A DNA stretch of 64,000 bases from Ardenticatena maritima (lineage in GTDB: Bacteria > Chloroflexota > Anaerolineae > Ardenticatenales > Ardenticatenaceae). Every line of letters starts with the position of its first letter. The stretch's first letter is position 1. The notes beneath the pieces are model-generated. The model saw only the letters and a program-made list of their open reading frames with translations. It searched no databases and was not told the origin of the DNA. The stretch lies in the NCBI RefSeq assembly GCF_001306175.1, contig NZ_LGKN01000003.1, forward strand, positions 186,001-250,000. Reading direction: 5' to 3'. Made by a program: the position numbers and the translations under genes. Of the stretch, positions 11,733-49,259 are shown in pieces.

Positions 11733-12815
11733 TTAGGCGGGGGTAGGCTCTTTGACTTCTTCCACACGGTACGCCCGAATGGGTTCACTATGCCCTTTGA
11801 GCACAATCGGTTCAATGGGGCGTACGACAACCAGGTCTTTGACTCGCTCATAGGTGGCGTTGTCAATCAAAATCTCACCGCCATGCGCAATTTCTTGCAG
11901 GCGTTTGGCGGTGTTTGGCGTGTTCCCAATCGCGGTGTAATCCATCACTTGCTCTGAGCCTACGTTGCCGACTACCGCTTCCCCTGTGGCGATACCAATC
12001 CCAATGTGAAGTTTTTGCAGCAACTCATCGCCTTCGCGCATGCGCAAGAACGCTTGTTGCATCGCCCATGCCGTGCGAATCGCGCGCTCGGCGTCGTTTT
12101 CGCTGGCAAGCGGTGCGCCGAAAAATGCCATGATGGCGTCGCCGAGGTATTTGTCCATGGTGCCGCCGTATTCAAAGACAAGCGGCGTCAGCACGTTGAA
12201 AATGCGGTTGAGTACGTCCAGCACGAGGGCTGCATCACGGCGTTCGGCAAAGTGCGTAAAGCCGCGGATATCCGCAAAAAGAACGCTGATGACGCATGTG
12301 CGCCCCCCCAGGCGCAAGTTCTCATCCGGGTTTTCGAGAATGGTCTGGGCGATTTCGCGCGAGACGTAGCGCGTCAGAACCTGTTCCAGCAAAGCGTTTT
12401 TGGCTTGCAATTCATCATGCAGTTGCTTGATACGCAGCAAAGAGCGCACACGCGCCAAGAGTTCTACGCGATTGAACGGCTTGCTGAGAAAATCATCGGC
12501 GCCGGCTTCCAGCCCCTTGACCTTGTCTTGCACTTCGCGCAGAGCGGTGAGCATGAGGATGGGGATAGCGCGCCTTTGTTCATCAGCGCGCAAACGCCGA
12601 GCGACCTCGAAGCCGTCCATCTTCGGCATCATAATGTCCAGGATAATGAGGTCGGGATCATGTTTTTCGACGGCTTCCAGGGCTTCAACGCCATCGTATG
12701 CTGTGAAAATGAGGTATCCTTGTGGAATCAACATCGCTTCGACCAGTTCCACGTTGTGTGGATGGTCATCTACCACAAGAATGCGTGGCTTGTTTTCACT
12801 CTTGGCTTGCGTCAT
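11733..12815 (-). CDS. Response regulator with class III adenylate/guanylate cyclase output
   Basis: Residues 10-130 are a complete receiver: acidic pair VVDDHP, phospho-acceptor Asp60 in LIILDIMMPKMDGF, Thr90 and Lys112 in LSKPF. A coiled linker leads to a class III cyclase catalytic domain (about 165-350). The metal-binding Asp182 is in VLFADIRGFT and the second in KYLGDAIMAFFGAP (Asp226). Substrate residues Lys222 and Asp292 (VMDYTAIGN), and the transition-state pair Asn301/Arg305, are all present. The Lys/Asp pair predicts ATP as substrate and active cAMP synthesis. Its start overlaps the end of the histidine kinase gene by 20 bases, so the kinase is its likely partner. Confidence 0.93.
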   Translation of the reverse strand: MTQAKSENKPRILVVDDHPHNVELVEAMLIPQGYLIFTAYDGVEALEAVEKHDPDLIILDIMMPKMDGFEVARRLRADEQRRAIPILMLTALREVQDKVKGLEAGADDFLSKPFNRVELLARVRSLLRIKQLHDELQAKNALLEQVLTRYVSREIAQTILENPDENLRLGGRTCVISVLFADIRGFTHFAERRDAALVLDVLNRIFNVLTPLVFEYGGTMDKYLGDAIMAFFGAPLASENDAERAIRTAWAMQQAFLRMREGDELLQKLHIGIGIATGEAVVGNVGSEQVMDYTAIGNTPNTAKRLQEIAHGGEILIDNATYERVKDLVVVRPIEPIVLKGHSEPIRAYRVEEVKEPTPA

Positions 12816-15800
12816 GACGACCCTCTTTATTCAGTATCTGGGTGCGCTCGTCAACCTGTTCTTGCCCTTGCAACGGCATTTCAATGTGCACGCGCGTTCC
12901 TTTGCCTTCCTCACTCTCAATCCAGATACGCCCACCATGCATTTCAACCAGGCGGCGGGTCAAGGTCAACCCCAAGCCCGTGCCTTCGGTTGAGCGGCGA
13001 TAGCGGTCTTCTTCAATGCGGGTAAACGCCTCGAAAATTGTATCCAGTTTATCGGCGGGAATGCCGACCCCGGTATCTTCGACCGTGAGGCGCAACCTGT
13101 CGCTTTCTTCCCACGCCCAAATGGTGACCGACCCTTCTTCGGTGAATTTGATGGCGTTGGAAACAATATTGTAGAGCACCTGTTTGAAGCGCAGACGGTC
13201 GGCGACGATGCGGGCGGGGGCGTGGTCAAGGGTGTATTTGAGTTCCAGCCCTTTCTTTTCGGCAAGTGGTTGCACAACGCTCACAACTTCTTCGATAGCG
13301 CCGTGCAGGTCAAACAGTTCGTAATGCAGGTCCATGCGCCCGGCTTCAATTTTCGAGAGGTCCAGAATATCGTTAATGAGGTCTAACAGGTGGCGGGCGC
13401 TGGTCAGAATGTTGTTCAGGTAGCGGTGCTGGTGCTCGTTGAGTTCGCCAAAGGCTTCATCCTGCAACACTTCGCTGAACCCGATGATGGAGTTGAGCGG
13501 TGTGCGCAATTCGTGGCTCATGTTGGCGAGGAATTCGCTCTTCAAGCGTGAGGCGCGCGCCAGCTCTTCGTTGGCGCGTTGCAATTCTTCGGTGCGCGCT
13601 TGCAATTCCGAGATGAGCCGCGCGTCCTCGATGGCGGTAGCAACCTGGTGTGCAAAGAGTTCGAGCACCTGGATTTGTTCCCATGTTGGGCGCAATCCAT
13701 CCGCCGGACCGTCAACTGAGAGATGCCCGAGAATACGGTCGCCCAGGCGGATGGGAATAATCAACACGTCAGCAGGATGCCAGCGATGACGCCCTTCAGA
13801 TTCATTGAGGATGATGACTTCATCCTGCAAGATGAGGCGGTCGGTTTCGCGCAGATATTCCAACTGTTCCTGGCTGAGTTGTTCGGCGCGAATGAAGTAG
13901 GATTGGCTGATGCGGTACTTTTCGTGTTGCCAGAACGATTCTTCGATGGGCGAAGGCGGCAAGCCTAAAATGCGCTTTTCAAGCGCGGGGTCGCGTGAAA
14001 CGGCTGCCGCGGGCAAGACAACGCCACGTTCCTCATCCCGCAAGAAGAGCGCCACCGTGTTCCAGCCCAGCGTTTCGCTGACCGTGCGGCAAACCTGTTC
14101 AAAGAGTGTGGGCAAGTCGGGTTGGCGGCGCAGGTGTTGAATAATGTCCAACAGGCGGGTGACCTGTTCGGCGTGTTGTTGGACCTTGCGGAAGAGCTGG
14201 GCGTTTTCAATGGCAACGCTCAGCTGATTGGTGAGCGTTTGAAGCAAGAGCAAATCGCTTTCGTCGAACGCGTTGGTACGGGCGTCTTGCAAATCGAGCA
14301 CGCCGATGACTTCACCGCTGCGGTTGAAAATGGGGAGCGCCATTTCGGCGCGTGTCTGTTCGAGTGTGGGCACGTAGAAGGCGCTGTTTTGCACGTCGTT
14401 GACAATGAGCGGCTTTCCGGTAGCGGCAACGTGCCCCACAATCCCTTCTGAACCGACTTTGAGCGGGCGGTTTTTGCGGCGCGTGAGCAAACTGGTATCA
14501 GTCGTGGCAGCGAGATAGGCGTATTCGTCCTTGACCAGGTTGATATTGACCTGGGCGTACCCATAGGCGCGTTGAATCGCAAAGACGACTTCCGTCAGCA
14601 GGTGGTCAAGGTCCAGAATGGTGTAGAGCCGCCGACCAATTTCGTGCAAGAGAGTGAGTTGTTCGATGCGTCGTTTTTCTTGCGCCAGTAGAAGCGCATT
14701 TTCGTAGGCGGCGGCGGCTTCTTGCGCAAGGAGCGAGAAGATTTGAACGGTGTCGTTGGCTACTTTTTCGGGGTCGAGCAACAGAAGGATAGCGCGCACT
14801 TCGTTTTCCCAGGCAAGTGGCGCGGCGATGTACTGTTTGCATTCAATCGTGAAGGTTGAGCCGTCGTTGCGTTTCCCTTGAATGGGACCTTGGCCTGTTG
14901 TGGCACCAATCGCACGCACGAAGGTAATGAAATCGCCTTGCAGCAAAATTTCGTGCAAATTGGTATGCCGTTGCATGTTGATATGTTCGGCAAGGAACAG
15001 GTGTTCCCCGCGCTTGATGAAGAGCGCCGCCGCGCGTGCCGGAAGCATGTCAAGCGCTTCTTGGAGAATGTGGCGGCGGAGCGCCGCAACGTCGTGCTCA
15101 CCCGCCAGTCGCAAGAGGCTTTGATAGAGGCGCGTCAGGGCGCGGATGCGACTTTCACTTTGCTGGTAGAGTTGCGCGTTTTGAATGGCAGCGGCGACAC
15201 GACTGGCAAGCAGTTGCAGCATCAATTCATGGTCGGATGTAAATGTGCCGGGTTGGTCGCTATCAATGCTGAGCGCCCCAATAACGCGGTCTTCGATAAT
15301 GAGCGGCGCGACCATGAGTGAGCGCACCCCTGAACCAAAGTCAATGAACGCGGGGTCTTTGGTCGTGTCGGTGATGCAAAAGCTGCGCCGTTCGAGGACG
15401 GCACGTCCGGCGATACCTTCACCAATGTGCATGGTAGGTTTTTCGCGGACCGGAATCTCCTCGTCGGAGAGGGCGACCGGCACGAGCATTTTGCGTTCTT
15501 CATCCACCAGGTGGATGATGGCTTTGCGAGCTTTGGGGAAACTCTTGACGGTGTCGCGCAGAATGCGGCGCAACACTTCTTCCATATCCAGAGAGCTGCT
15601 GATGGAACGGCTAATATCGAGCAACGTGTTCAGTTCGCGCACACGTTGCCGCAACATCGCGTTGAGGGCGTTGAGTTGTTGCTCGCGCTGACGGAGTGAA
15701 TCCAGCATTTGGTTGAAGGCAACACCGACTTCCTGGAATTCGCGCGGCGCTTGTGCAAGCGCAAGCGGGCTGTAATCCCCTTTGCGGACACGCTGCGTGG

Positions 15801-33707: not shown

Positions 33708-36700
33708 ATGGGGACGATTCTCTCGATTACACTGCTCACGCAATTGATTCTGATATTGTATGGCCTGCGTACCAAACGCGTGCCCTGGTACTGGATTCTC
33801 ATTTTGCTTGTTGGCCTCGTGGGCAACGGCGCTTATCTTCTGTTGTATGGTCTGGCGCCAAACACATTTGCCTTTCGGCGCGCCGTCTGGACAGCGGCGT
33901 TTCTCTTGCCACTGATGACTTTTATCTACGCTGTCGGCGCGTTTTACTACTTGTATGAGCGGAAGATGGTGGGGCGGCTTGTCCACTTGCTTCCCATCTT
34001 TTTATTAGGACTGGTGCGCATGGCTTGGGAAATCCTCGACCATGCAGCGGATGTTTTAGCAACTGTAACCACTCCCCAGGACCTGGTTGTTGTATTAGAT
34101 TCTTTCTCCATTTCCTCGGATTTCTGGCAAACAACAGGACCTTTTGACCCCTATATTGCTCGGTTTAGCGGCATTGGGTTTGCTGTCGTCACTTTGCTTC
34201 TGTTGGTGCAAGCCGCCTGGCGTTGGTGGCGGTTGCAACAGCGGGTTTCTCCCGAGTACAACGCTGTCTCGTATCTCATTGTCGTTATGACAGTGAGCTT
34301 GTTTATCGTCGTTCCCACGCGCATCTGGCTCGATTCGATGATTGTGGGCCAGCTCACAGTGTTGCTGTTGACGTTGGCGCTGGGCTTTATGTTCATCATT
34401 CAATCGGAGAGCGTGCTCGATACGTTTACGCGCTTCCTCGGGCGCTATTCCATTGGCTTGAAACTGGAAGCCGGTTTTGGCCTGGCTTTGATGCTGGCTG
34501 GGGTGTTGGTGGCTATTTCGGTGGCGACAATTGGGAGCAATAACTTCACGGTTGAAAATGTTACCACCGTACAACATGAAATTTTGGAAGCCACAACGCA
34601 ACTCATGCTCGATTTTCGCGCCACACGCATTTATGAGCGGAATATTGTCGCGAACGCTTCGGGTCCTACAACACAGGCTGTTGACGTGCAGATGGTCAAT
34701 GATTGGCAGCAAGCCATGGCGCGTGTCCAGGCGGATGTAGAGCACTTGAAGGAATTGCCATTGACCGAGCGGCAGCAAAACACAGTGCGTCTTATTGAAG
34801 CAGCTGTCGAGCGGTATCGCAATGACATTGGTGCCATGCTTGGCGCCATTATGACCCGCGGCGACGAGCAGAGCGGTGAAATGGGGCGCTGGTATCAGTC
34901 GCAACTTGTTTTGCAAGAGACGGTTGCTGCCAATGAAACGGTTTATACAACATTAGCCCCCCTCTTGGCTGAATTGCGCCAGGCTCAGCTGGCGTACATG
35001 ATTAGCGGGCGCGGTGTGCGGGTCTACGAAGCCAACCAAACCTACACAGCGATTGATAAAGCGCTGGATGAGGTTTTGCGCCCACAGTTGTCTTTTGATG
35101 AATGGCGCGCAATTGACCGCGCCCTGGAAAACGAGCGCGCTGCCTTCCAGGGTGTTGTTCGATATCAAACAGAGATGCAATTGTCACGCAACAGTATGCA
35201 AGGCAATGCCTTGGTGATCGAAAACTGGACCCGCGAATTGTCTTCGCAGGCGAATCAACAGTTTGAAGCGAGCGTGATTTCCCTCCTGGAACAACAAGCG
35301 CGTGGGACGCTGACGCTCCTGGGTGTCGCCACGCTGATTACGTTGATTGTACTTTTTGTTTCACGCACGGTTTCCCAGCAGATTATTCAAGAGGCGTTGC
35401 AGTTGGCCGACGCCGCGCAACGTATGGCCAGTGGCGAATTGACGGCGCGTGTCAATATTGTCTCGCGTGACGAGTTGGGCCTGGTTGGACGTACTTTCAA
35501 CGAAATGGCGGCGCGCTTGCAAGATTTGCTTGAGACGCTGGATGCCCGTGTGCGACGCCGCACAAGTCAGTTGGAAACGGCTGCTTTGGTGAGCCAGGAA
35601 TCTGTTGCCCTGCAAGGTGGGCAAGTTGATGAGTTGCTGCAACGCACCGTTGAACTGATTCGTGAACGCTTTGGCTTTTATCACGCCCAGGTCTTCTTGG
35701 TGGATGAAAACAACGAGTGGGCGGTTTTGCGTGCCAGCACTGGCGAAGCAGGCCGCCAATTGCTAGCCCGTGGACATAAATTACAGGTTGGCTCGCGCAG
35801 TGTTATCGGGCGTGTCACCGCTGATGGGGTGCCTGTTGTTGCCCGTGATACTGACAAAGACAGTATTCACCGCAAGAATGAATTGCTCCCGCAAACGCGT
35901 GCGGAATTGGCTGTGCCGATGAAATTGGGGGATCGCATTATCGGCGCGTTGGACGTGCAAAGCGTCAAGCCGGATGCGTTTGGCGAAGACGACGTCGTGG
36001 CGTTGCAAATTCTCGCCAACCAGATTGCGACCGCTGTGAATAACGCGCGTTTGCTCCGCCGGGTGCAGGAAACATTGCGCACAACCAACGAACTCTACAC
36101 CCGCAGCCGCTTGATTGCTGAAGCAACAGAAGAAAAAGAAGTCCTGCAACAGCTGGATGAAGCACTCCAAGCGACAGCCGTCGAAACGTTGCGTTTGCGC
36201 GAAGGGTTCTTGGCAACGGTTGATTCGTTTACCGAGGGGACTGTTCGCATTGAGTGCATGTGCGTTTTGCCAACAGAAGAAAAACAAGCGTTCTGCGGGC
36301 AGGTTGTGCCGCTCTTCCAGAGAAATGCGCATGCCTTTATGGAGTTGTTGGCGCAGGACGAAGCCGTTTTGCTCGATCAGGATACCCGCGATGTGCTCTC
36401 GGAAGAGGTGCGTCGCATCGTGAAAGATATGCCGTATGTGGCTATTTTGCCACTCGTAGTTGAGCGCACTGTGTTTGCGGTTGCTGTGTTGGCTGGTAAC
36501 TGGAGCGAGATGCTCTCGATCGAGCAGTTGACACCATACCTGACGCTCTTTGACCAGGCGGGTACGGTGATCGAAAACATTCGCTTGCTACGCCGTACAG
36601 CCGAAGCATTGGAGAGCACCAACCGACTTTATCAGACAGTGAGTCGGTTTGCACAGGCTGAATCAGTGGAAACGATTGCCGATGTGCTAGCGGATACGGC

Positions 36701-39521
36701 TCGCGCACAAGGGTTCGACGGTGCTTACTTGGCTGTGTTGCCGAAGCCCGTACGTGTGGATGTTGAAGAGGCTTTGGCGCATGAATACACCGTGGTGCCG
36801 CGCACGTGGGTGGAAGGGTTGCCTGACACACCATTCCGATTCCGCTGGCGAAAACAGGCACGCGCCTTTTTGAAAGAAACATTTACCAACCGCGAATATG
36901 TTGGTATTGAACATGAGGAAGCGCATCGCCGTGTCAAGGCTCTGATTCGTGCTGAAGGCGTGACATTGCCTGAATTTCAAACAATGCTATTCCGTCCCCT
37001 GATGACGCGTGACCAGATGACAGGGGTGCTTCTCCTTGTGGCGCGTGATTCACTGGAGATTGACCGCGAGACAGAACGTTTCTTCCTCTCATTGACCGAA
37101 CAAACAAGCATCTCGCTTGAAACGGTCATGCTCTTTGAGCAGACGCGCCGTTCGTTGGAGCGCACCGAAGCCTTGTATGAAGCCGGGCGGCTCCTCACAC
37201 AAGCCGATGAGCATAGCGACCTGGCGGCTGCGGCTTTGCCGCTGGCACGCTATTTTGGCCACCAGTGGGTGAGCATGCCTTTGTTGGTGGAAGAAACGGG
37301 TGAGGACGCCCTGGTTAATTATGTGGCTGATGTGCGGCATGGCGACGTCGAACGCCGCCTCATGTCAAAAGCATTTTTCGATATGGCTCGCACGCTCTTT
37401 GAGGAAAATCAACCCTACATTGCTTTTGATGATGTTGAAAATGCACCATTGCCTGAACAATTGCGTAAATTGTTGCAAGAAAACGACATACGCGCGCTGT
37501 TGTCTGTGCCATTGCGTGTACGTGGACAGGTGCAAGGCTTCCTGGTTTTTAGCTCTGTAGAACCACACGCCTTTACAGAAGAAGAACTTGAAGTAGCAAG
37601 GGCGTTTGCGGGGCAAACGGCCTTGGCGCTGGAAAGCTTGCAACTGATTGAGCGTATCGAAAACGAATTGCGCGAAACACAAGCGTTGTACCGCGTTTCG
37701 CGTGGTTTGTTGCAAGCCGAAAGGCCGCGAGATATGGCGCGCTTGCTTTTTGAAAGTGCCAAGGAATCAGGATTGTTTACGCCTGATGTGCCCGCTTTCA
37801 TTGCTGTGGATGAACTGCATGTTGACCCACATGGTCGCGTCACGTCGTTGCGGGTGATTGGTTTGGCCTCATCGGTGCCTTCAGCAGAAGATCGCTTTGA
37901 GGGACGCGTCTTTGACGTGCGAGAAATGCCCGCCATGGGCACCCTGGACCCCAATGCCGATACCCCGTTGGTTTTTGAAGATATCGAGACAGCAGACGCG
38001 TTGACCGCCGCCGACCGGGAAGCGGCGCGTGCGCTCAACTTCCGCAGCACTGTGCTGGTCCCGTTCCGCATTGGTACTGATGGCTACGGGTTGATACAGA
38101 TGGGACAAGCGCGTCCGCGTGCATATACCCCCTCGGAAATCCAGCGTCTCCAGACATTGGCGGGGCAAATCGGTGTTGTGCTGGAAAACCGCCGTCTGTT
38201 CGAGCGAACGCAACAGGCGTTGCAAGAAACGCGCACCTTGTACGACACAATTCAGAACCTGTTGATGGCGACAACGATCGAGGATATTCAGCAACGCCTC
38301 TACGAGACATTGGCGGAGCGTGTGCACCCCTTGCGTGTGGGCTTGTGGCTCTTTGACCGCCCGCATAGCGTAGATGAGCATCCTGAAGGCTTGCGGTTGG
38401 TTTCGTCGGGGGGCGAAGAAGCAATCAACATGCCGATTGGTTCATATTTGCCCGCGGATCGTTTCCCCACGATCAAACGTTTGCGTGCGTCGGAACCGTT
38501 CTTCATCACCGATGCTGAAGCCGAATTGGAAGACGACCCCGCGTTGCGAGAAGTGATTACTCGCACGGGGGCGCGTGCCTTGGCCGTCTATCCGCTGACA
38601 CGCGGCAACACCTGGTTTGGTGTAGCTATTATCACGTGGGCGCATCCGCGAAAGGTGTCGGAAGATGAAGACCGCCTGCTTGCGGCAATCTTCTCGCAAA
38701 CAGCCATTGTGTTGCAGAACCGTCGTTTGCTAGAAACAGTGCAACAAACGCTCGAACGTACTCAGCGCTTGTATCGCGCGAGCCGCCGCATGAGTGCCGC
38801 ATCGACCATACAAGAAATTGCTGATGCCTTCCTGGAAGCATTGGAAGATCGGTGGGAAAGTGTTGGTTTGCTGCTCTTCCCGCAGCCTGTGAATGTGGGT
38901 GAAACACCTCCTGAGAAAGTTATCTTGCGGGCGGCGGCGCCACTTGAAAAGGCTGTTTTGCCGCCGGGAACAGTGCTCGAACGCCCGGTTATCCCCATGT
39001 ATGAGCATGTGATGAAAGAGCGCATTGTGATTGTTGAAGATGCAGCGACAGATGAACGCTTGACGGAACCAGCGCGCCAGATGTTGTTGGCGCAGAAAGC
39101 GCGCCGTTTGGCGCTCATCCAACTGGTGGTAGGCAACCGCTGGTTAGGGTGGGTGAGTTTGCGCGCCAACGACATCGCCCATGTTGATGCCCAACAACTC
39201 GACGCTTTGCTGACGCTGGCCGACCAGGCTGCGGTTGTGATTGAGAACTTGCGTCTTTTCCAATCGGCACAGCGCCGTGCGTGGCGCGAAGAAACCGTGG
39301 CGCGTATTGCCAGCAAAGTCTTCATGTTGAACAACCCGCGCGATGTGCTCGAAGTGGGCATGCAGGAGTTGCAACAGGCGCTGGGGGTGCGCCGTGTCGC
39401 GGCGTGGATTGAAACAGCCCATTTGCAAGAGCAAGAGGATGAGACGCAATCATTTGCGACTGGCGCTCTCAGGCGTCCAAAATTGGACGATGGGAATGGT
39501 CATAGCGATGAAAACATCTAA
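33708..39521 (+). CDS. Giant membrane sensor: 7TM-like region, HAMP and about seven and a half GAF domains, no kinase
   Basis: 1937 residues. The first 235 hold about seven hydrophobic helices (7TM-His-kinase-like). A further helix near 254-274, a helical extracellular region and a helix at 533-553 lead to HAMP (554-610). GAF-type domains follow in series from about 640 to the end; the last is incomplete. Each is joined by a similar coiled linker, such as LLRRVQETLRTTNELYTRSR, LFEQTRRSLERTEALYEAGR and LLETVQQTLERTQRLYRASR. There is no HisKA, HATPase, GGDEF, cyclase or phosphatase domain. It ends in a charged tail (KLDDGNGHSDENI). Its output must come through other proteins of the locus; that is an inference. 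Confidence 0.9.
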   Translation: MGTILSITLLTQLILILYGLRTKRVPWYWILILLVGLVGNGAYLLLYGLAPNTFAFRRAVWTAAFLLPLMTFIYAVGAFYYLYERKMVGRLVHLLPIFLLGLVRMAWEILDHAADVLATVTTPQDLVVVLDSFSISSDFWQTTGPFDPYIARFSGIGFAVVTLLLLVQAAWRWWRLQQRVSPEYNAVSYLIVVMTVSLFIVVPTRIWLDSMIVGQLTVLLLTLALGFMFIIQSESVLDTFTRFLGRYSIGLKLEAGFGLALMLAGVLVAISVATIGSNNFTVENVTTVQHEILEATTQLMLDFRATRIYERNIVANASGPTTQAVDVQMVNDWQQAMARVQADVEHLKELPLTERQQNTVRLIEAAVERYRNDIGAMLGAIMTRGDEQSGEMGRWYQSQLVLQETVAANETVYTTLAPLLAELRQAQLAYMISGRGVRVYEANQTYTAIDKALDEVLRPQLSFDEWRAIDRALENERAAFQGVVRYQTEMQLSRNSMQGNALVIENWTRELSSQANQQFEASVISLLEQQARGTLTLLGVATLITLIVLFVSRTVSQQIIQEALQLADAAQRMASGELTARVNIVSRDELGLVGRTFNEMAARLQDLLETLDARVRRRTSQLETAALVSQESVALQGGQVDELLQRTVELIRERFGFYHAQVFLVDENNEWAVLRASTGEAGRQLLARGHKLQVGSRSVIGRVTADGVPVVARDTDKDSIHRKNELLPQTRAELAVPMKLGDRIIGALDVQSVKPDAFGEDDVVALQILANQIATAVNNARLLRRVQETLRTTNELYTRSRLIAEATEEKEVLQQLDEALQATAVETLRLREGFLATVDSFTEGTVRIECMCVLPTEEKQAFCGQVVPLFQRNAHAFMELLAQDEAVLLDQDTRDVLSEEVRRIVKDMPYVAILPLVVERTVFAVAVLAGNWSEMLSIEQLTPYLTLFDQAGTVIENIRLLRRTAEALESTNRLYQTVSRFAQAESVETIADVLADTARAQGFDGAYLAVLPKPVRVDVEEALAHEYTVVPRTWVEGLPDTPFRFRWRKQARAFLKETFTNREYVGIEHEEAHRRVKALIRAEGVTLPEFQTMLFRPLMTRDQMTGVLLLVARDSLEIDRETERFFLSLTEQTSISLETVMLFEQTRRSLERTEALYEAGRLLTQADEHSDLAAAALPLARYFGHQWVSMPLLVEETGEDALVNYVADVRHGDVERRLMSKAFFDMARTLFEENQPYIAFDDVENAPLPEQLRKLLQENDIRALLSVPLRVRGQVQGFLVFSSVEPHAFTEEELEVARAFAGQTALALESLQLIERIENELRETQALYRVSRGLLQAERPRDMARLLFESAKESGLFTPDVPAFIAVDELHVDPHGRVTSLRVIGLASSVPSAEDRFEGRVFDVREMPAMGTLDPNADTPLVFEDIETADALTAADREAARALNFRSTVLVPFRIGTDGYGLIQMGQARPRAYTPSEIQRLQTLAGQIGVVLENRRLFERTQQALQETRTLYDTIQNLLMATTIEDIQQRLYETLAERVHPLRVGLWLFDRPHSVDEHPEGLRLVSSGGEEAINMPIGSYLPADRFPTIKRLRASEPFFITDAEAELEDDPALREVITRTGARALAVYPLTRGNTWFGVAIITWAHPRKVSEDEDRLLAAIFSQTAIVLQNRRLLETVQQTLERTQRLYRASRRMSAASTIQEIADAFLEALEDRWESVGLLLFPQPVNVGETPPEKVILRAAAPLEKAVLPPGTVLERPVIPMYEHVMKERIVIVEDAATDERLTEPARQMLLAQKARRLALIQLVVGNRWLGWVSLRANDIAHVDAQQLDALLTLADQAAVVIENLRLFQSAQRRAWREETVARIASKVFMLNNPRDVLEVGMQELQQALGVRRVAAWIETAHLQEQEDETQSFATGALRRPKLDDGNGHSDENI

Positions 39522-39637
39522 TTGCCCTTTTTTCAAAGAAAGGGTATTCATAAACGGTGCGTGTTGGGCAACGATGTTGCCATTGGCGTATTGGTTGGTG
39601 CCAGTATCAACCCCTAAACCGACAGGAGGATGAAAGG

Positions 39638-40465
39638 GTGACTGAAGGTTTCTCGAACTTGCCGGATATTGACACGACACGACCGAGCGCCGCGCGGATG
39701 TACGACTATTACCTGGGCGGCTTCCACAACTTTGAAGTGGACCGCCAGGCGGCGGATCAGCTTCTCAAAATTTACCCACAGGTACGTGATTCCGCAGTTG
39801 CCAATCGCGCTTTTATGCGGCGGGCTGTGCGTTTCATGGTGTCGCAAGGGATTGACCAGTTTTTGGATTTGGGGTCGGGGATTCCGACGGCGGGCAACGT
39901 GCACGAGATTGCGCAGGCGGTAAACCCCGACGCGCGGGTGGTGTACGTGGATATAGACCCGGTGGCGGTGGCGCATGGGCGCGTAATTCTGGAAGGCAAT
40001 GAAAACGCCACAGTGATTCAAGCCGATGCGCGCGATATTGAGCAAATCATCAACCATCCCGATGTGCAACGCTTGATTGATTTTTCCAAGCCGACGGGTT
40101 TTTTGGCGGTGGGCTTTTTCTACTTCGTTGATGATGAAGGGGTGAAGAAAATTCTGGAGACGTTCCGCTCTCTGGCGGTGTCAGGGAGTTATTTGGCATT
40201 GACGCATTTGTCGGATGATGATGAAGTTGTCACCAATGACCACATTCGTGCAGCCATTGAGAAAGGGAAGGAGATTTACGCTCGTTCTCCCAATCCTTTA
40301 TATTGGCGCAAAAAATGCGAAATTGAAGCGATGTTTGAAGGGTGGGAACTGGTAGAGCCGGGGTTGGTGTTTGTTCCGCTTTGGCGGCCGGAAGGTGATG
40401 ACGACCCCGGATTGGACGACCCGGCTGCTTTGGCAATGTATGGTGGCGTTGGTATCAAGCCTTGA
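39638..40465 (+). CDS. SAM-dependent methyltransferase (DUF574/Methyltransf_19), tandem copy 1
   Basis: 275 residues of the DUF574 family. The N-terminal signature SAARMYDYYLGGFHNFEVDR and QVRDSAVANRAFMRRAVRFM lead to motif I FLDLGSGIPTAGNVHEIAQ, the acidic VVYVDIDPVAVAHG and VIQADARD, all parts of a Rossmann SAM site. Most known members are of unknown substrate. The start is a GTG eight bases after AGGAGG; an upstream frame is less likely. It is followed by two close copies. Placed between the giant GAF protein and a histidine kinase, it may modify a component of this signalling locus or a small signal; no direct evidence says which. Confidence 0.9.
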   Translation: MTEGFSNLPDIDTTRPSAARMYDYYLGGFHNFEVDRQAADQLLKIYPQVRDSAVANRAFMRRAVRFMVSQGIDQFLDLGSGIPTAGNVHEIAQAVNPDARVVYVDIDPVAVAHGRVILEGNENATVIQADARDIEQIINHPDVQRLIDFSKPTGFLAVGFFYFVDDEGVKKILETFRSLAVSGSYLALTHLSDDDEVVTNDHIRAAIEKGKEIYARSPNPLYWRKKCEIEAMFEGWELVEPGLVFVPLWRPEGDDDPGLDDPAALAMYGGVGIKP

Positions 40466-40485
40466 ACAAATGGGAGTATGCGAGG

Positions 40486-41307
40486 ATGACAGAATCGAAC
40501 TTGCCGGATATTGACACGACACGACCGAGCGCCGCGCGGATGTACGACTATTACCTGGGCGGTTTCCACAACTTTGAAGTGGACCGCCAGGCGGCGGATC
40601 AGCTTCTCAAAATTTACCCACAGGTACGTGATTCCGCAGTTGCCAATCGCGCTTTTATGCGGCGGGCTGTGCGTTTCATGGTGTCGCAAGGGATTGACCA
40701 GTTTTTGGATTTGGGGTCGGGGATTCCGACGGCGGGCAACGTGCACGAGATTGCGCAGGCGGTAAACCCCGACGCGCGGGTGGTGTACGTGGATATAGAC
40801 CCGGTGGCGGTGGCGCATGGGCGCGCAATTCTGGAAGGCAATGAAAACGCCACAGTGATTCAAGCCGACGCGCGCGATATTGAACAAATCATCAACCATC
40901 CCGATGTGCAACGCTTGATTGATTTTTCCAAGCCGACGGGTTTTTTGGCGGTGGGCTTTTTCTACTTCGTTGATGATGAAGGAGTGAAGAAAATTCTGGA
41001 GACGTTCCGCTCTCTGGCGGTGTCAGGGAGTTATTTGGCAATAACTCATGGATCAGATGACGATGAAATTATCACCAATGATCGCAATCGTCAGGCCTTG
41101 GATGTTGCGAAGAAAATTTACGCCCGTTCCCCTAACCCTTTATATTTGCGCAAAAAGCACGAAATTGAAGCGATGTTTGAGGGGTGGAAACTGGTAGAGC
41201 CGGGGTTGGTGTTTGTTCCGCTTTGGCGACCGGAAGGTGAGGATGACCCCGGATTGGACGACCCGGCTGCTTTGGGAATGTATGGTGGCGTTGGTATCAA
41301 GCCTTGA
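40486..41307 (+). CDS. SAM-dependent methyltransferase (DUF574/Methyltransf_19), tandem copy 2
   Basis: 273 residues, nearly identical to copy 1 up to SLAVSGSYLA. Then comes a variable block, ITHGSDDDEIITNDRNRQAL, where copy 1 has LTHLSDDDEVVTNDHIRAAI. The tail again matches copy 1. The SAM site is unchanged. The ATG follows GGGAG; a TTG 24 bases upstream overlaps the previous stop and is rejected because the ATG has better spacing. The intact SAM site and unbroken frame argue that it is functional. Confidence 0.9.
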   Translation: MTESNLPDIDTTRPSAARMYDYYLGGFHNFEVDRQAADQLLKIYPQVRDSAVANRAFMRRAVRFMVSQGIDQFLDLGSGIPTAGNVHEIAQAVNPDARVVYVDIDPVAVAHGRAILEGNENATVIQADARDIEQIINHPDVQRLIDFSKPTGFLAVGFFYFVDDEGVKKILETFRSLAVSGSYLAITHGSDDDEIITNDRNRQALDVAKKIYARSPNPLYLRKKHEIEAMFEGWKLVEPGLVFVPLWRPEGEDDPGLDDPAALGMYGGVGIKP

Positions 41308-41327
41308 ACAAATGGGAGTATGCGAGG

Positions 41328-42143
41328 ATGACAGAATCGAACTTGCCGGATATTGACACGACACGACCGAGCGCCGCGCGGATGTACGACTATTACCTGG
41401 GCGGTTTCCACAACTTTGAAGTGGACCGCCAGGCGGCCGAATCTGTCTTGAAGGTGTACCCGCAAGTGCGTGATGCGGCGGTTGCCAATCGTGCTTTTAT
41501 GCGGCGGGCTGTGCGTTTCATGGTGTCGCAAGGGATTGACCAGTTTTTGGACTTGGGGTCGGGGATTCCGACGGCGGGCAACGTGCACGAGATTGCGCAG
41601 GCCATAAACCCCGACGCGCGGGTGGTGTACGTGGATATTGACCCGGTGGCGGTGGCGCATGGGCAAGCAATTCTGGAAGACAATGAAAACGCCACAGTGA
41701 TTCAAGCCGACGCGCGCAATGTGGAAAGCATCATCAATCACCCCGATGCGCAACGCTTGTTGGATTTCACAAAACCGATAGGCATTCTGGCTATCGCCTT
41801 TTTGCATTTTATTGAAGATGAAGGTGTGCAAAAGATTCTGAGTGCCATGCACAGTCTGGCTGTCTCGGGGAGTTATCTCGCCATTACACATTCGTCTGAT
41901 GGGGAAGAATTTGGTCCCGAAGCACAGCGCGTTATTCGGATGGTGCAGGAAATTTACGCTAAATCACAAAATCCGCTCTTTTTCCGAAAATTATCAGCAA
42001 TTGAAGCTATGTTCAACGGGTGGCGTTTGGTTGAGCCTGGCTTGGTTACACTGCCTTTGTGGCGACCGGATGATGAAGAGTCGCTCGAAGAAGAAGTTCA
42101 ACGAGCATCTGGATGGTATGGTGGCGTTGCCGTCAAGCCATAA
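41328..42143 (+). CDS. SAM-dependent methyltransferase (DUF574/Methyltransf_19), tandem copy 3
   Basis: 271 residues. It shares the start of copy 2 exactly, then departs at the ninth conserved block (ESVLKVYPQVRDAA for QLLKIYPQVRDSA). It keeps motif I FLDLGSGIPTAGNVHEIAQ and VVYVDIDPVAVAHG. The C-terminal third is the most divergent: LDFTKPIGILAIAFLHFIED and HSSDGEEFGPEAQRVIRMVQ. It ends WYGGVAVKP like the others. The pattern suggests an older copy partly overwritten by gene conversion. Ribosome site as in copy 2. Confidence 0.9.
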   Translation: MTESNLPDIDTTRPSAARMYDYYLGGFHNFEVDRQAAESVLKVYPQVRDAAVANRAFMRRAVRFMVSQGIDQFLDLGSGIPTAGNVHEIAQAINPDARVVYVDIDPVAVAHGQAILEDNENATVIQADARNVESIINHPDAQRLLDFTKPIGILAIAFLHFIEDEGVQKILSAMHSLAVSGSYLAITHSSDGEEFGPEAQRVIRMVQEIYAKSQNPLFFRKLSAIEAMFNGWRLVEPGLVTLPLWRPDDEESLEEEVQRASGWYGGVAVKP

Positions 42144-42217
42144 TGAAGCTGTAGGATGGTATGGATGGAAACATCCTTCAACGCAGAAGAGAATCTCGGT
42201 GTGAGAGGTAGTTGCGT

Positions 42218-45121
42218 ATGGCAGATATGACCCAAATCCAATCCAAACTCGAGACGCGGAAGGCGGCGCTTGTCAAAGAGATTCGCAAGTATCTGCGGCG
42301 TAGTGCCTATATACCGCTGTCTCTTGATGAAATTACAGCGCGTGTGGAGAAACTTGCACAATTGTTCATAGAAACATTGTGTAGTGAACCGTTTGAGCCA
42401 CGCGCCATGCGCGCCGCCGGTGCTATTCTGGTGGAGCTGCGCTGCATTCACGCCGAGATTCTCCCCGGATTGTTGGCCATTTTTGAGACATTTCTGAAAG
42501 AAAGCCTGGATGAAGAGGAACGTGTTGCATGCGCCAGGCGGTTGACGCGCCTTGTGGCCGAATTGACGATTGGCTACACCAATGTTGCCCAAAGGGCTGT
42601 GTTGGAGCAGCAAGACCGCATTCGCGCTTCGTTGCAAAAAGCCATTGCAGAGCAACAAGAGCAATTGCGCGTGTTGAATGACCTCATGACACGCGTGGCG
42701 CTGTTTGGGCAGTTGATTTTGGAATCACATCAGCTGCAAGAAGTATTCCAGGCAACGGTTGAAAATTTGGTTTCGCTGTTTGACGCACAGGCCGCGGCTA
42801 TCTGGTTTGGTGCTGGGGATGTATTGAGAAGGGTGGCGACCGTAGGCGATATTCCCGAAACCGTTGGCGCTGAACGCATTCAGCGTGCCGACGCCCAAAC
42901 AATGCTGGCAGCAAAGGCGTGGCAACAGGGGCAAATGCAGATCGAATATACGCTAGAAGGCGCCCATGTGGCGGTTCCATTTGCAGGCCAGGGGCAGGAA
43001 GCGGGTATCTTTTATGTACAATTGCCGCCTTCTGTGATGATCAGCCAGCAACACAAATCTGTTTTTAGAACGCTGGCACAGATCATCACACGCGCTGTGC
43101 AGATGACTGAGGCGTATGAGCAGACCGCTGAGCAGTTGCAAGAAGTTGAGCGTATTGTACAGCGCCAAACGATTGAAGGGTGGCGCTCGGCGGCATCTCT
43201 CATGCGCCAGCGATTGTTGCTCGACGGTACCGAGTTTCATGTGTTGGAGAAGCCGCCGGTGGGCACAGATTTACTCCGCCCTTATCATGTGATGGTTGAA
43301 CCGCAACGGATAACCGCGCCTCTGGATGTGCGTGGGACGCCCATTGGCGGGATTGTTCTGGAAAGCGAAGAGCCGCGTGAATGGGACGAGGACGAAGTGC
43401 GCCTTGTCGAGGAGGCGTCGAGAATTCTTACAAACGCGTTGGAAATGGCGCGTTTGTTCCAGGAACAGCAGCGACGTTCACTCCAATTGCAGGCGGCTGC
43501 CGAAGTGGGGCGTGCAGCGTCTTCACTCCTTGATCTGGATGAGTTGCTCAACCGCACAGTGGACCTAATCCGCGATGCATTCGGGTATTACCACGCCCAA
43601 GTCTTCCTGGTGGACGACGAAGGCTATGCGGCGTGGTTGAAAGCGAGTACCGGCGAGGCCGGGCGCAAGCTGTTGGCGCGAAAACACCACTTGCTCGTTG
43701 GGAGCAAAAGCGTCATTGGGCAGGTCACCAAGTACGGTGAGCCCGTCGTGGCGCGTGATACAGACCAGGACACAATCCACCGCAAGAACGAATTGCTCCC
43801 CGCGACGCGGGCTGAATGTGCGGTGCCTTTGCGGGTTGGGGGGCGTATTATCGGCGCGCTGGACGTGCAGAGCACCGAGCCTGACGTGTTCTCTCCCCAA
43901 GATATCGCCGTGCTGCAAACACTCGCCGACCAGTTGGCTATCGCCATCGAAAACGCGCGTGCATACGAACGCCAGCGTGAAACCGCCGAACGCTTGCGCG
44001 AACTGGACCAGTTGAAGTCGCAATTCCTGGCGAATATGAGCCACGAATTGCGTACACCGCTCAACTCCATCATCGGCTTCTCGCGCGTGATTTTGAAGGG
44101 GATTGACGGTCCTATCAATGATTTGCAGCGGAGAGACCTCGAAACAATCTACAACTCTGGTCAGCACTTGCTGAGCCTTATCAATGACATTCTCGATATT
44201 TCAAAAATTGAAGCTGGCAAGATGCGGCTTGACTTCGAGAAAGTGGATTTGTATCAAATCTTTGATAGTGTGCTCAGCACCGCACAGGGGCTGATCAAAG
44301 ACAAACCGGTTCAGTTGGTGTCCGAAATTCCCGAAGGCTTGCCGCAGATTATCGCTGATGCTACACGTGTCCGCCAGATTTTGCTGAACTTGCTCTCGAA
44401 TGCCGCCAAGTTCACCGAAAAAGGTGAAATTCGTGTGACGGCGACCCAAGCCGCCGATGAGATTATCATCAGCGTTTCTGACACGGGTCCCGGTATTCCC
44501 GAAGACCAGCTGGATAAGCTCTTTGAAGCGTTCTACCAGGTTGACGGTTCGATGACACGCAAAGTTGGCGGGACCGGTTTGGGCTTGGCGATTACACGCC
44601 ACTTTGTCGAAATGCACGGTGGGAAAATTTGGGTGCGGAGTACCGTTGGGAAAGGGTCGACGTTCTCGTTCTCGCTTCCTATTGGCGGCCCGGAACAAGC
44701 CGCTCAGAAGAAGGATGGAGAAGGGGCGTCTTTGCCGGGGAAAGGGTACACCGTTGTTGCTGTGGACAACGAACCCGGTATTTTGGAGTTGTATCGCAAG
44801 TACCTGGAGCCGGAAGGCTATAAGGTGGTTACGCTTACCGATGAACGCGAACTCTTGGCAGCCATTGAAGAACACCAGCCCCATCTCTTGCTTATGGAAG
44901 TCAGCCTGAAGCATGTGGCCGGCATGAGTTTGGTGCGGGCGTTGAAGCGCAATGTGCTCACGCGTGATATTCCCATGATTGTGTGCACACTCAATGGTGA
45001 TGAGAATGAATTATCACAAGCCGGCGTCGAAGCTGTTTTGCGGAAACCTATTGTTCGTGATGAATTGGTGAAAGCCGTCAATAATCTGGTACATATTCGC
45101 CAGAAGGTCTCACCATCGTAA
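42218..45121 (+). CDS. Cytoplasmic hybrid histidine kinase: GAF domains, HisKA-HATPase, degenerate receiver
   Basis: 967 residues and no membrane helix. An N-terminal helical domain (1-150), a GAF-like domain (about 165-300), a half-GAF-like stretch (320-410) and a clear GAF (425-585) lead to HisKA with NMSHELRTPLNSIIGFS (His609) and HATPase with NLLSNAAKF, SDTGPGIP and GTGLGLAI, all intact. The C-terminal receiver (about 844-960) has Glu894 (LLLMEVSLKHVAG) where the phospho-acceptor Asp should be, VDN for the acidic pair, but keeps LRKP. So the kinase looks active and its receiver cannot be phosphorylated normally. The ATG is set by GAGAGGT. It is the only complete kinase in the locus. Confidence 0.93.
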   Translation: MADMTQIQSKLETRKAALVKEIRKYLRRSAYIPLSLDEITARVEKLAQLFIETLCSEPFEPRAMRAAGAILVELRCIHAEILPGLLAIFETFLKESLDEEERVACARRLTRLVAELTIGYTNVAQRAVLEQQDRIRASLQKAIAEQQEQLRVLNDLMTRVALFGQLILESHQLQEVFQATVENLVSLFDAQAAAIWFGAGDVLRRVATVGDIPETVGAERIQRADAQTMLAAKAWQQGQMQIEYTLEGAHVAVPFAGQGQEAGIFYVQLPPSVMISQQHKSVFRTLAQIITRAVQMTEAYEQTAEQLQEVERIVQRQTIEGWRSAASLMRQRLLLDGTEFHVLEKPPVGTDLLRPYHVMVEPQRITAPLDVRGTPIGGIVLESEEPREWDEDEVRLVEEASRILTNALEMARLFQEQQRRSLQLQAAAEVGRAASSLLDLDELLNRTVDLIRDAFGYYHAQVFLVDDEGYAAWLKASTGEAGRKLLARKHHLLVGSKSVIGQVTKYGEPVVARDTDQDTIHRKNELLPATRAECAVPLRVGGRIIGALDVQSTEPDVFSPQDIAVLQTLADQLAIAIENARAYERQRETAERLRELDQLKSQFLANMSHELRTPLNSIIGFSRVILKGIDGPINDLQRRDLETIYNSGQHLLSLINDILDISKIEAGKMRLDFEKVDLYQIFDSVLSTAQGLIKDKPVQLVSEIPEGLPQIIADATRVRQILLNLLSNAAKFTEKGEIRVTATQAADEIIISVSDTGPGIPEDQLDKLFEAFYQVDGSMTRKVGGTGLGLAITRHFVEMHGGKIWVRSTVGKGSTFSFSLPIGGPEQAAQKKDGEGASLPGKGYTVVAVDNEPGILELYRKYLEPEGYKVVTLTDERELLAAIEEHQPHLLLMEVSLKHVAGMSLVRALKRNVLTRDIPMIVCTLNGDENELSQAGVEAVLRKPIVRDELVKAVNNLVHIRQKVSPS

Positions 45122-45145: not shown

Positions 45146-46789
45146 ATGAATCAGTGGTGGCTTGAATGTGCGCGTTGTGGACGTACCGATATACCAACCG
45201 ACAAACCGTTGACCGCATGCCCACATTGCGGGCATGACTGGCTCGAACCGCGGTTCCCGTACGAAAAACTCAAACCGATTTTGCTGGAAGAAGTGCCCAA
45301 GCGGCGCTGTACCATGTGGCGCTACCGCGAGTTTCTGCCTATTACCCATGATGAAAACATCATCTCCATGGGTGAAGGCGGTACGCCACTCATCCGTTTG
45401 CGCAATTTAGGGTTGATGTTTGGCGCACCCAATTTGTACGTCAAAGATGAGCGCCAGGGACCAACCGGCAGTTTCAAGGATCGGCAAGCCTCGCTTGCCA
45501 TCAGCCTGATGAAGGAACACAACATCCGCGAAGCCGTTGTGGCCTCAACCGGCAATGTTGCCATCAGTTATTCGGCCTATGCGGCGCAAGCGGGCATCAA
45601 ACTTTGGGCGTTCCTCACATCAAGCGTGCCGGCGGACAAGATGCGCGAAGTCGCTCTGTACGGCACCGAAGTTGTCAAAGTGACGGCGACATATGACCGC
45701 ACGAAGGAAGTCGCCGCCCAATTTGCTGAGCATCGCGGCTTACACCTCGACCGTGGGATTCGTAGTGTGGCAGCGCGTGAAAGCATGAAGACACTGGCGT
45801 ATGAAATCGCCGAAGATTTTGGATGGCGTGCGCCTGACTGGTATGTGCAGGCGGTGAGTGGCGGCATGGGGCCCGTGGGGGTCTTGAAAGGGTTTCAGGA
45901 ACTCTACCGCATGGGCTTGATTGACAAAATTCCCAAAATTGCCGCTGTGCAAGCCACAGGCTGCGCCCCCATGGTCAAAGCATGGCAGGAAAATTCATCC
46001 GTACCTATCAATGTTGAATCGCCGCAGACGTTGATTACTACGGTGGCGACCGGGAAACCTGGGATTGCTTACACCATTTTGTACCATGCCGCGAAACGCT
46101 ATGGCGGTACGTTTGTCGCCGTTACGGACGAAGAAGCCTTCCGCACCATGCACATCATGGCAAAACTGGATGGTTTCTCGATGGAGCCTGCCGCTGCCAT
46201 GGCGTTTGCCGGCACAATGCAATTGCTGCGCGAAGGCGTTATCAAGCCTGATGAAACGGTGGTGATTTGCCTCAGTGGGCACACCTTCCCTGTTGAAAAG
46301 CATTTGCTGGAAGAAGGGTGGGCGCACGACCTCGACCTGTCTCACGAAGAGGAAACGTCGCATACTGTGCCCAATCGTGAGGAAGGGTTGCTGGCGTCGC
46401 TCGAAAATCTGGGCGGCGATGTGCGCCGAATCGTGATTGTGGAAGATGACGCCCCCGCTCGCGTCCTTCTGCGCCGCATTTTGCAGGCACGCGGTGAATA
46501 CGAAATCTACGAAGCCGAAAATGGGCGGCGGGGTTTGGAAGTCATCAAGCAAGTGCGCCCCGACCTCATCTTGCTTGACTTGATGATGCCCGAAATGGAC
46601 GGCTATCAGGTGCTTGACCACCTGAAGGCTGATGAGACGCTTGAAAATATCCCCGTCATCGTGATTACGGCGGCGCATTTGACCGAAAGCGAACGCAAGC
46701 GCCTGAGCGGCTATGTGCGCTCCTTGCTTCGCAAGGGTGAGTTCATTGATACGGAACTGATGGACGATATCGAATCGGCGTTGAAGTAG
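45146..46789 (+). CDS. Threonine synthase-like PLP enzyme fused to a C-terminal receiver domain
   Basis: 547 residues. Residues 1-400 are a threonine synthase: a zinc-ribbon-like start (CARCGRTD with CPHCGHDW), GEGGTPLIRL, the PLP Lys111 in GPTGSFKDRQASLA, STGNVAISYSAYAAQAG and the phosphate loop AVSGGMGPVGVLKG. After a short linker, residues 429-547 form a receiver: IVIVEDDAPARV, phospho-acceptor Asp478 in LILLDLMMPEMDGY, Thr498 region IVITAA and Lys530 in LLRKGEF. Both halves look intact and are in one frame with no stop. ThrC turns O-phosphohomoserine into threonine. Direct control of this or a related PLP reaction by phosphorylation is an inference. It follows the kinase by 24 bases. Confidence 0.9.
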   Translation: MNQWWLECARCGRTDIPTDKPLTACPHCGHDWLEPRFPYEKLKPILLEEVPKRRCTMWRYREFLPITHDENIISMGEGGTPLIRLRNLGLMFGAPNLYVKDERQGPTGSFKDRQASLAISLMKEHNIREAVVASTGNVAISYSAYAAQAGIKLWAFLTSSVPADKMREVALYGTEVVKVTATYDRTKEVAAQFAEHRGLHLDRGIRSVAARESMKTLAYEIAEDFGWRAPDWYVQAVSGGMGPVGVLKGFQELYRMGLIDKIPKIAAVQATGCAPMVKAWQENSSVPINVESPQTLITTVATGKPGIAYTILYHAAKRYGGTFVAVTDEEAFRTMHIMAKLDGFSMEPAAAMAFAGTMQLLREGVIKPDETVVICLSGHTFPVEKHLLEEGWAHDLDLSHEEETSHTVPNREEGLLASLENLGGDVRRIVIVEDDAPARVLLRRILQARGEYEIYEAENGRRGLEVIKQVRPDLILLDLMMPEMDGYQVLDHLKADETLENIPVIVITAAHLTESERKRLSGYVRSLLRKGEFIDTELMDDIESALK

Positions 46790-46860: not shown

Positions 46861-48156
46861 CTAGAGATAGCAGAATTCGCGCGCTTTGCGTTCCAATTCT
46901 TCGCGAAACTGCGGCGCAGCAATGTTGATCAAGGCTTTGACACGTTCGCGAATGGGTTTTCCGTACAGGTCAGCCACGCCATATTCCGTCACCACGTAGT
47001 GAACGTCGTTGCGCGTTGTTGTGACACCCGCGCCGGGCTTCAGCATGGGGACGATGCGCGAAATGGTGCCGTTTTTGGCGGTGGCGGGCAAGGCGATGAT
47101 GGGCATGCCACCTTTCGAGCGGGCGGCGCCACGCACGAAGTCCAATTGCCCACCCACACCGCTGTAAAAGCGTGTGCCGATGGAGTCTGCCGCGACTTGC
47201 CCCGTCAGGTCTACTTCGATGGCACTGTTGATGCTCACCATCTTTTCGTGTTGGGCAATCACAAATGGGTCGTTGACATAATCTGTTGGATGCAACTCGA
47301 AAATCGGATTGTCGGCGACGAAGTCGTACAGCGCTTGCGAACCGAAGAAGAACCCTGCGACAACCTTGCCGCGGTGAATGGTCTTCTTCGCCCCCGTGAT
47401 CACGCCGGCTTCGATGAGGTGCATGACGCCGTCCGAGAATAACTCGGTGTGAATGCCAAGGTCTCGGTGCGAGTAGAGGTTGTTCAGGACGGCGTCGGGG
47501 ATGCTGCCGATACCCAGTTGCAGGGTTGCCCCGTCGGGAATCATCTCGGCAATGATTTCCCCAATGCGTTTATGCACATCGGACATGCCGCCCAGCGGCG
47601 CTTCGGGCAGTGGGGCGTCGGCTTCTACGATGATGTCAAGGTTGCGTATGTGGATAAAACTGTCTCCATGGGTGCGTGGCATGTGACGATTGACCTGGGC
47701 AACCACGACCCTGGCGGCTTCGGCGGCGGGCTTGGTACAGCCCACTTCGACACCGAACGAGCAGAAGCCGTGTTCATCAGGCGGAGAGACCTGGATAAAC
47801 GCGACATCGAGCGGCAAACGCCCATTGCGGAAGAGCCCCGGAATCTCTGAGAGAAAAATCGGCGTAAAATCCGCCCGCCCTTCGTTGACGGCTTGGCGCA
47901 CGTTGTGTCCGATGAAGAGCGCATTGTGGCGGAAACTCTGCGCGTATTCGGGTTTCACATAGGGCGCGTCGCCGAAATGCAACACGTGGACGATTTCCAC
48001 ATCGCGCAGGTCGTTGGCGCGTTCCACCAGCGCGTTGATGAGGGCTTGTGGCGCACCAGCCCCACCACCGATATACACGCGATGCCCCGATTGCACCACC
48101 TCCACGGCTTTTTCGGGCGTTGTCACTTTCGAGCGATACATGTGTGCCCAGTTCAT
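46861..48156 (-). CDS. Acetyl-CoA hydrolase/transferase family (4-hydroxybutyrate CoA-transferase-like)
   Basis: Moves CoA between short acyl-CoAs and carboxylates. The 431 residues have the two Rossmann-like halves: SGHRVYIGGGAGAPQALINA at the N-terminus, then LQLGIGSIPDAVLNNL and LGIHTELFSDGVMHLIEAG, whose Glu is the covalent catalytic residue. GVGGQLDFVRGAARSKGG and VVTEYGVADLYGKPIRER close the active site. The 4-hydroxybutyrate/butyrate type is suggested by the length and the HTELFSDG form; the substrate is not proven. GGAGGTGA precedes the ATG, which overlaps the stop of alanine dehydrogenase. Confidence 0.9.
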   Translation of the reverse strand: MNWAHMYRSKVTTPEKAVEVVQSGHRVYIGGGAGAPQALINALVERANDLRDVEIVHVLHFGDAPYVKPEYAQSFRHNALFIGHNVRQAVNEGRADFTPIFLSEIPGLFRNGRLPLDVAFIQVSPPDEHGFCSFGVEVGCTKPAAEAARVVVAQVNRHMPRTHGDSFIHIRNLDIIVEADAPLPEAPLGGMSDVHKRIGEIIAEMIPDGATLQLGIGSIPDAVLNNLYSHRDLGIHTELFSDGVMHLIEAGVITGAKKTIHRGKVVAGFFFGSQALYDFVADNPIFELHPTDYVNDPFVIAQHEKMVSINSAIEVDLTGQVAADSIGTRFYSGVGGQLDFVRGAARSKGGMPIIALPATAKNGTISRIVPMLKPGAGVTTTRNDVHYVVTEYGVADLYGKPIRERVKALINIAAPQFREELERKAREFCYL

Positions 48157-49259
48157 AGCGTCACCTCCACTTCGCGCCCGAGCGCCGCCGCTACGCGGGC
48201 GTTGGCGAGTTTGCCTTGCCAGACGTTGACGCCCCGTTGCAGCGCCGGGGTCTGTTCCAACGCCATGGCAAGCCCCTTGTCGGCAATTTCCTGAATGAAG
48301 GGCAGCGCCGCATTGGCCAGGGCATAACTCCCCGTGCGCGCCACCCGTGCCGGCACATTGGGCACGGCATAGTGGATGACGTTTTCTTCAATGTAGAAGG
48401 GATGCACGTGGTTGGTGGGGCGGCTGGTTTCGATACACCCACCGCTGTCAATCGAAAAGTCAATGATGACGGCGCGTGGGCGCATGGTCTTCACCATTTC
48501 ACGCGAAACGAGGATGGGTGCACGCGCGCCGGGAACAGAGACCGCGCCGATAAGCACGTCGGCGAACGAGACGGCTTTGGCGATGTTGTAGGGGGTTGCC
48601 AGCATGGTGCTCACACGTTGCCCCAGAATCCGATCTAACTCTTGCAGGGTGCGCAGATTCTGGTCGAGCACGGTGACTTGCGCGCCAAGCCCGCAAAACG
48701 CCTGTGCAGCGTTGCGCCCTAGCGTCCCCGCCCCCAGGATGACCACCGCCGCCGGCGGCGTGCCGGGAATACCGCTCAGCAAGATGCCGCGTCCCCCGTT
48801 GGTGCTTTCCAGCAGTTGCCCGGCGATGAGGGGCGCCATACGCCCCGCCAGGATGCTGGTGGGGTGCAGGACGGGCAGAAAGCCGTCGTCGGTTTCGATG
48901 GTTTCATACGCAATGGCGGTCAGTCCATCGGCTTGCAGCGTTTCCAGCAAATCAGGGGAAGCCACAGCCAGGTGGAAAAACGCCATGATGACTTGCCCCG
49001 GCCGAAAGTAGCGGTATTCCGCTTCGGTGGGGCGAGCGACTTTGACAACCAGGTCGGCGCGTCCGTAGGCTTCTTCGGCGGTGTACACGATGGTTGCCCC
49101 GACGGCTTCATACGCGCTATCGGGAAAGCCTGCGCCCTCGCCGGCGCCATGCTGAACAAACACGCGATGCCCCGCCCTGACCAGCGCGTCGGCGGCGGCG
49201 GGGGTGAGGGCAACGCGCTGTTCCATGAGACGAACTTCTTTGGGAACTCCTATGTCCAT
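48153..49259 (-). CDS. ald: Alanine dehydrogenase
   Basis: Interconverts alanine and pyruvate with NAD+. The 368 residues show the family order: MDIGVPKEVRLMEQRVALTP with the substrate Arg, HGAGEGAGF, VVKVARPTEAEYRYF, the NAD loop VVILGAGTLGRNAAQAFCGL, and VHPFYIEENVIHYAVPNVPA near the end. A pyridine nucleotide transhydrogenase alpha subunit would be longer and lack this ending. GAGGTGAC precedes the ATG. It is co-translated with the CoA-transferase. Its leader contains a compact three-stem fold (separate entry). Confidence 0.92.
   Translation of the reverse strand: MDIGVPKEVRLMEQRVALTPAAADALVRAGHRVFVQHGAGEGAGFPDSAYEAVGATIVYTAEEAYGRADLVVKVARPTEAEYRYFRPGQVIMAFFHLAVASPDLLETLQADGLTAIAYETIETDDGFLPVLHPTSILAGRMAPLIAGQLLESTNGGRGILLSGIPGTPPAAVVILGAGTLGRNAAQAFCGLGAQVTVLDQNLRTLQELDRILGQRVSTMLATPYNIAKAVSFADVLIGAVSVPGARAPILVSREMVKTMRPRAVIIDFSIDSGGCIETSRPTNHVHPFYIEENVIHYAVPNVPARVARTGSYALANAALPFIQEIADKGLAMALEQTPALQRGVNVWQGKLANARVAAALGREVEVTL

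Follow-up and report, generated by a model that had tools for sequence, protein, structure and literature searches.

Organization of the Locus

The window, a 64,000-nucleotide stretch of the Ardenticatena maritima genome, carries a gene at 45146..46789 (+) that encodes a fusion of a threonine synthase (ThrC)-like enzyme and a receiver domain. A preliminary description of the locus had read it as one open frame joining the two, and this was borne out: the gene is a single intact frame of 547 aa that starts with ATG, both domains were matched by Pfam, and an AGAGGA-like ribosome site lies 5' of the start. The protein begins with a zinc ribbon (C8-x2-C11 ... C25-x2-C28; 45167..45229, +), whose four cysteines are kept in the alignments of the fusions. 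It is followed by a PLP fold-type-II (PALP) domain of residues 73-378 (45362..46279, +; Pfam PALP E 5.7e-67), within which the codon of the PLP lysine K111 lies at 45476-45478 (+). The receiver domain (46418..46786, +; Response_reg 429-516, E 1.4e-19) has its acceptor D478 encoded at 46577-46579 (+), and D434, T508, and K530 complete the same receiver. In the AlphaFold2 model of the fusion (pLDDT 85), both domains were confident and the linker of residues 382-424 (46289..46417, +; pLDDT < 50) was disordered. In a fold search, the top matches were threonine synthases.

The gene directly 5' of the fusion encodes a GAF-HisKA-HATPase-receiver hybrid kinase (42212..45121, +). The kinase frame ends at 45121 and the fusion starts at 45146, which agrees with the 24-base spacing noted before. 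Further upstream, three tandem PF04672 S-adenosyl-methyltransferase genes (39557..42143, +) lie between the kinase and a 1937-aa HAMP/multi-GAF protein without kinase domains (33708..39521, +), and proteins similar to the latter were found 5' of the kinase in many relatives. The three methyltransferase genes are arranged head-to-tail, nearly identical, and overlap by 4 bases, apparently as the result of a recent triplication beside the kinase. The PF04672 assignment is based on Pfam for the third copy in the window and for the copy in relative L140, and on sequence likeness for the other two copies in the window. In relatives L130-L132 and L140, too, such genes adjoin the fusion. One of two types of gene occupies the slot between the multi-GAF protein and the kinase: that of a PF04672 methyltransferase, as in this genome and a small number of relatives, or that of a ParA-like ATPase. 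At L137, a ParA/MinD-like ATPase gene (12785-13573) extends into the start of the kinase gene and occupies the place that the methyltransferases have in the window, and the same overlap was seen in L028, L144, L145, L148, L166, L169, and L190. On the other side, an acyl-CoA transferase gene and an alanine dehydrogenase gene (46861-49259, -), which overlap by 4 bases, converge on the fusion gene. The best match of the acyl-CoA transferase, butyryl-CoA:acetate, was below the cut-off.

Distribution and Conservation of the Fusion

Of 396 genomes sampled from Anaerolineae, 144, belonging to 24 families, carry the full-length fusion, often in two copies. A wider draw of Chloroflexota added seven genomes outside Anaerolineae, Herpetosiphon among them. 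Since the fusion recurs at 44-96% identity both in and outside the class, it is neither a chance arrangement nor a joining error. The search across Chloroflexota that the preliminary description had proposed thus showed conservation of the architecture, and the two objections it had raised, a fusion without relatives and a sequencing or assembly error that joins two genes, are excluded by the same full-length protein in 144 genomes. A search of a Desulfobacterota sample, made without a positive control in that phylum, gave 0 matches in 247 genomes.

In a tree with 33 plain ThrC-like proteins, 49 fusions formed one clade with an SH-aLRT support of 100 and a long stem. The receivers of the fusions also clustered together, with a weak support of 83. 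These results indicated that the sampled copies have a single origin. The L028 fusion, from Candidatus Villigracilaceae, nested within family f29, and this placement marks the sampled class as Anaerolineae.

Several deviating members were inspected. Some fusions are about 700 aa long, and their extra C-terminal part, considered as a possible new domain, was merely a second receiver. The fusion of L021 (G005:C91:25545-27190) is broken into three pieces by frame changes, reflecting error or decay, in a genome that is 86% complete. A 1695-aa polypeptide at L160, apparently a kinase and the ThrC-like enzyme in one chain, was not counted, as its N-terminal 1000 residues were not matched by Pfam and look as if the upstream kinase had been read out of frame.

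The residues that the preliminary description had picked out, namely Lys111, those of the zinc-ribbon-like N-terminus, and the Asp478, Thr, and Lys of the receiver, proved to be kept across 41 aligned fusions. At C8, C11, C25, C28, and K111, at most one sequence departed, while D434, D478, and K530 showed no exception in the 41 sequences and only T or S occurred at position 508. The catalytic residues of the output enzyme, K111 and the STGN loop, are intact in the fusion of the window and conserved in the alignments. The glycine after K530 is also fixed, giving an unusual Lys-Gly after the fifth strand of the receiver, where proline is common. Compared with the copy from the same genus, dN/dS was about 0.01 in both domains, a sign of strong purifying selection on each, although dS is near saturation.

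Genes Adjoining the Fusion

The neighborhood of the fusion was compared in 50 loci. In 41 of them, the fusion gene is closely preceded on its strand by a HisKA-HATPase kinase gene, and no recognizable kinase adjoins it in the other 9. The gaps between the two genes range from -4 to +36 bases in many loci, and a spacing like that of translational coupling is common. The C-terminus of the kinase consists of one or two receivers with the acceptor Asp in most relatives, and the kinases of L131 and L132 retain this residue. In the window, the receiver of the kinase has Glu (MEV) at the expected position, as does that of L130 from the same genus. Because this receiver lacks the acceptor Asp, the target of the window kinase should lie elsewhere, and we inferred that the fusion is its natural phosphate acceptor.

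In about 31 of the 50 loci, the next gene 3' of the fusion encodes a receiver as well, and the products in this position are often single receivers or receiver-HisKA-HATPase proteins. An EamA-type permease gene was found at most 3 kb downstream of the fusion in 19 of the 50 loci, a count that tracks lineages only roughly because the loci are related, and nowhere else in the approximately 800 kb compared. It is absent beside the fusion in the window, and the sole match in the same genome is about 100 kb away. In the subtype formed by L158, L159, and L167, the fusion is followed directly on its 3' side by a gene for a plain ThrC-like PALP protein of about 31-33% identity.

Relationship of the Fused Enzyme to Threonine Synthase

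The fused domain has the PLP fold type II with the SFKDR lysine, as in threonine synthase. The fusion scored 168.9 bits with the thrC model TIGR00260, a hair above the cut-off of 167.1, and 274.3 with the threonine synthase model NF006050, which is below the cut-off of 303. With 118.8 against a cut-off of 324.9 for TIGR03844, cysteate synthase was ruled out as its family.

When the fusions were compared with ten canonical ThrCs, 23 positions were fixed in both groups but differed between them, and many of these positions presumably belong to active-site loops. The motifs fixed in canonical ThrC (GNAGN and NS.NPYR.EGQ) are absent from the fused domain. The fusions have SGGxGP in place of the GNAGN loop and D(R/Q)G...ESM in place of NS..R..EGQ, and R103, Q114, and Y142 are fixed in them. 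The plain thrC that the preliminary description had suggested looking for is present in the same genome: a canonical ThrC (GNAGN, NSINPYRIEGQ) is encoded in one operon with aspartate kinase, which was read from its translation, and homoserine dehydrogenase, which was also identified by PF00742. Since thrB is present as well, the cell does not need the fused enzyme for threonine, and a role as its sole threonine synthase was ruled out. Four more plain ThrC-like proteins are encoded in this genome (C6:108884, C5:588857, C3:538187, and C4:201614), each in a separate clade.

Unfused relatives, 48-53% identical, were found in four of 244 genomes drawn from Cyanobacteria, the phylum of a Microcoleus locus, so the enzyme subfamily exists without a receiver. 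These proteins share most of the 23 fusion-type residues. All four genomes also carry other ThrC-like genes, a clearly canonical one in three cases. No neighbor of the unfused copies was conserved, and their context hence gave no clue to function.

Judged from these sequences, the fused enzyme represents a ThrC-related subfamily of its own, whose chemistry probably differs from that of canonical ThrC. The earlier label of a complete threonine synthase was right in that the ThrC-family domain is complete, but the tree and the fixed positions place it in a separate subfamily. Given this distinctness and the occurrence of unfused relatives beside other ThrC-like genes, the product of the fused enzyme may not be threonine. 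The preliminary description had offered as an alternative that the ThrC fold makes a different product here, and with altered motifs and the canonical pathway encoded elsewhere, this fits better than a control of threonine flux.

Proposed Function and Alternative Explanations

The receiver and the catalytic lysine are conserved and a kinase gene adjoins the fusion in most loci, which makes two-component control of a PLP reaction the best reading. We therefore consider, with a probability of about 0.6, that the fusion is a response regulator in which the upstream kinase drives a PLP enzyme as the output domain. Of the earlier proposal that phosphorylation directly sets the flux through a PLP reaction, the control itself is upheld by the kept Asp and Lys111 and by the adjoining kinase, but its application to threonine is weakened by the canonical thrC operon, thrB, and the missing ThrC motifs. 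As suggested by the gene order, the GAF-type hybrid kinase 24 bases upstream would autophosphorylate, and Asp478 of the fused receiver would then take over the phosphoryl group. Phosphorylation could then, via the flexible linker, change the activity or the assembly of the ThrC-like enzyme. The reaction would most likely be an elimination, replacement, or deamination, with an amino acid other than, or in addition to, O-phosphohomoserine as the substrate. The EamA permease encoded just 3' in many relatives probably serves to export the product or to transport a related amino acid. Points that speak against this reading are the Lys-Gly motif of the receiver, the 9 loci in which no kinase was recognized beside the gene, and the absence of an EamA gene next to the fusion of the window.

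The fused domain could also be an ordinary second threonine synthase that is switched by the kinase, its altered motifs leaving the substrate unchanged. The closest solved structures, by sequence and by fold, are threonine synthases, the score with TIGR00260 lies just above the cut-off, and the EamA superfamily includes the threonine/homoserine exporter RhtA of E. coli. We nevertheless regard this as unlikely: the GNAGN loop and the NS..R segment are among the parts that are fixed differently, the same genome has a canonical thrC operon, and in other genomes canonical thrC occurs alongside the unfused relatives. It seems distinctly unlikely that the ThrC-like domain is instead an input, which would bind an amino-acid metabolite through PLP and gate phosphoryl flow among the kinase, its receiver, and the downstream receiver or receiver-kinase. 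Such a role would suit the multi-receiver setting, in which the kinase and the fusion each carry one or two receivers, as well as the single-receiver or receiver-HisKA-HATPase genes 3' of many fusions, and receiver-attached domains can act as inputs (Galperin et al., PMC5847659). However, the domain keeps its catalytic lysine and its active-site loops and is linked to a permease, which suggests that it turns over a substrate and does not only sense one.

The conserved phosphorylation site bears on a further explanation, that the receiver merely localizes or dimerizes the enzyme as a scaffold and phosphorylation is no metabolic switch. Dimerization is a frequent mode of receiver action, and the flexible linker in the AlphaFold2 model and the Lys-Gly motif are consistent with it. 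With the full site conserved and a kinase gene adjoining most fusions, the chance of this is slim.

Comparison With Known Systems and Significance

The fusion shares PLP fold type II, the PTGSFKDR lysine motif, and the STGN loop with threonine synthases (such as 2zsj, 1uim, and 2d1f), but has an extra zinc ribbon, the receiver, and SGGxGP for GNAGN. Cysteate synthase CapA2 (9k3c) is a ThrC-related enzyme that acts on a different substrate. Its alignment with the fusion covers the N-terminal ribbon as well as the PLP domain, although the identity is only about 22%. The best receiver matches in the PDB were of the CheY/PleD type; these share the acid pocket, Asp, Thr/Ser, and Lys with the fusion, whose receiver differs in having Lys-Gly for Lys-Pro and in being C-terminal, not N-terminal, to the output domain.

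Fusions of receivers with metabolic enzymes are an already recognized kind of response regulator (Galperin classes, PMC5847659), to which the present protein is similar. The archaeal examples in that work carry a KaiC-type NTPase, a BcsA-like glycosyltransferase, a thioredoxin reductase, or a pyruvate phosphate dikinase (PMC5847659). They are narrowly distributed and include no ThrC-type enzyme, while the present fusion spans at least 24 families. No description of a ThrC-receiver fusion was found in the searchable literature; Galperin's 2010 review and 2006 census were outside this scope, and an earlier mention is possible. Members of this so far unassigned subfamily are probably annotated as threonine synthase.

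The output of response regulators is mostly transcription or second messengers. With a PLP amino-acid enzyme on the receiver, phosphorylation could act on metabolism without a step of gene expression. The fusion is present in much of one phylum, and the bacteria that carry it probably turn an amino-acid-making or -breaking reaction on and off directly in this way. The kinase, the enzyme, and the permease form a testable module. A bolder and rather doubtful extension is that this is a complete two-component module with a secreted small-molecule output, in which a sensor kinase is combined with a receiver-gated PLP enzyme that catalyzes a new reaction and with an EamA exporter dedicated to the module. 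If this were true, Anaerolineae and their relatives would release an amino-acid-like compound on demand.
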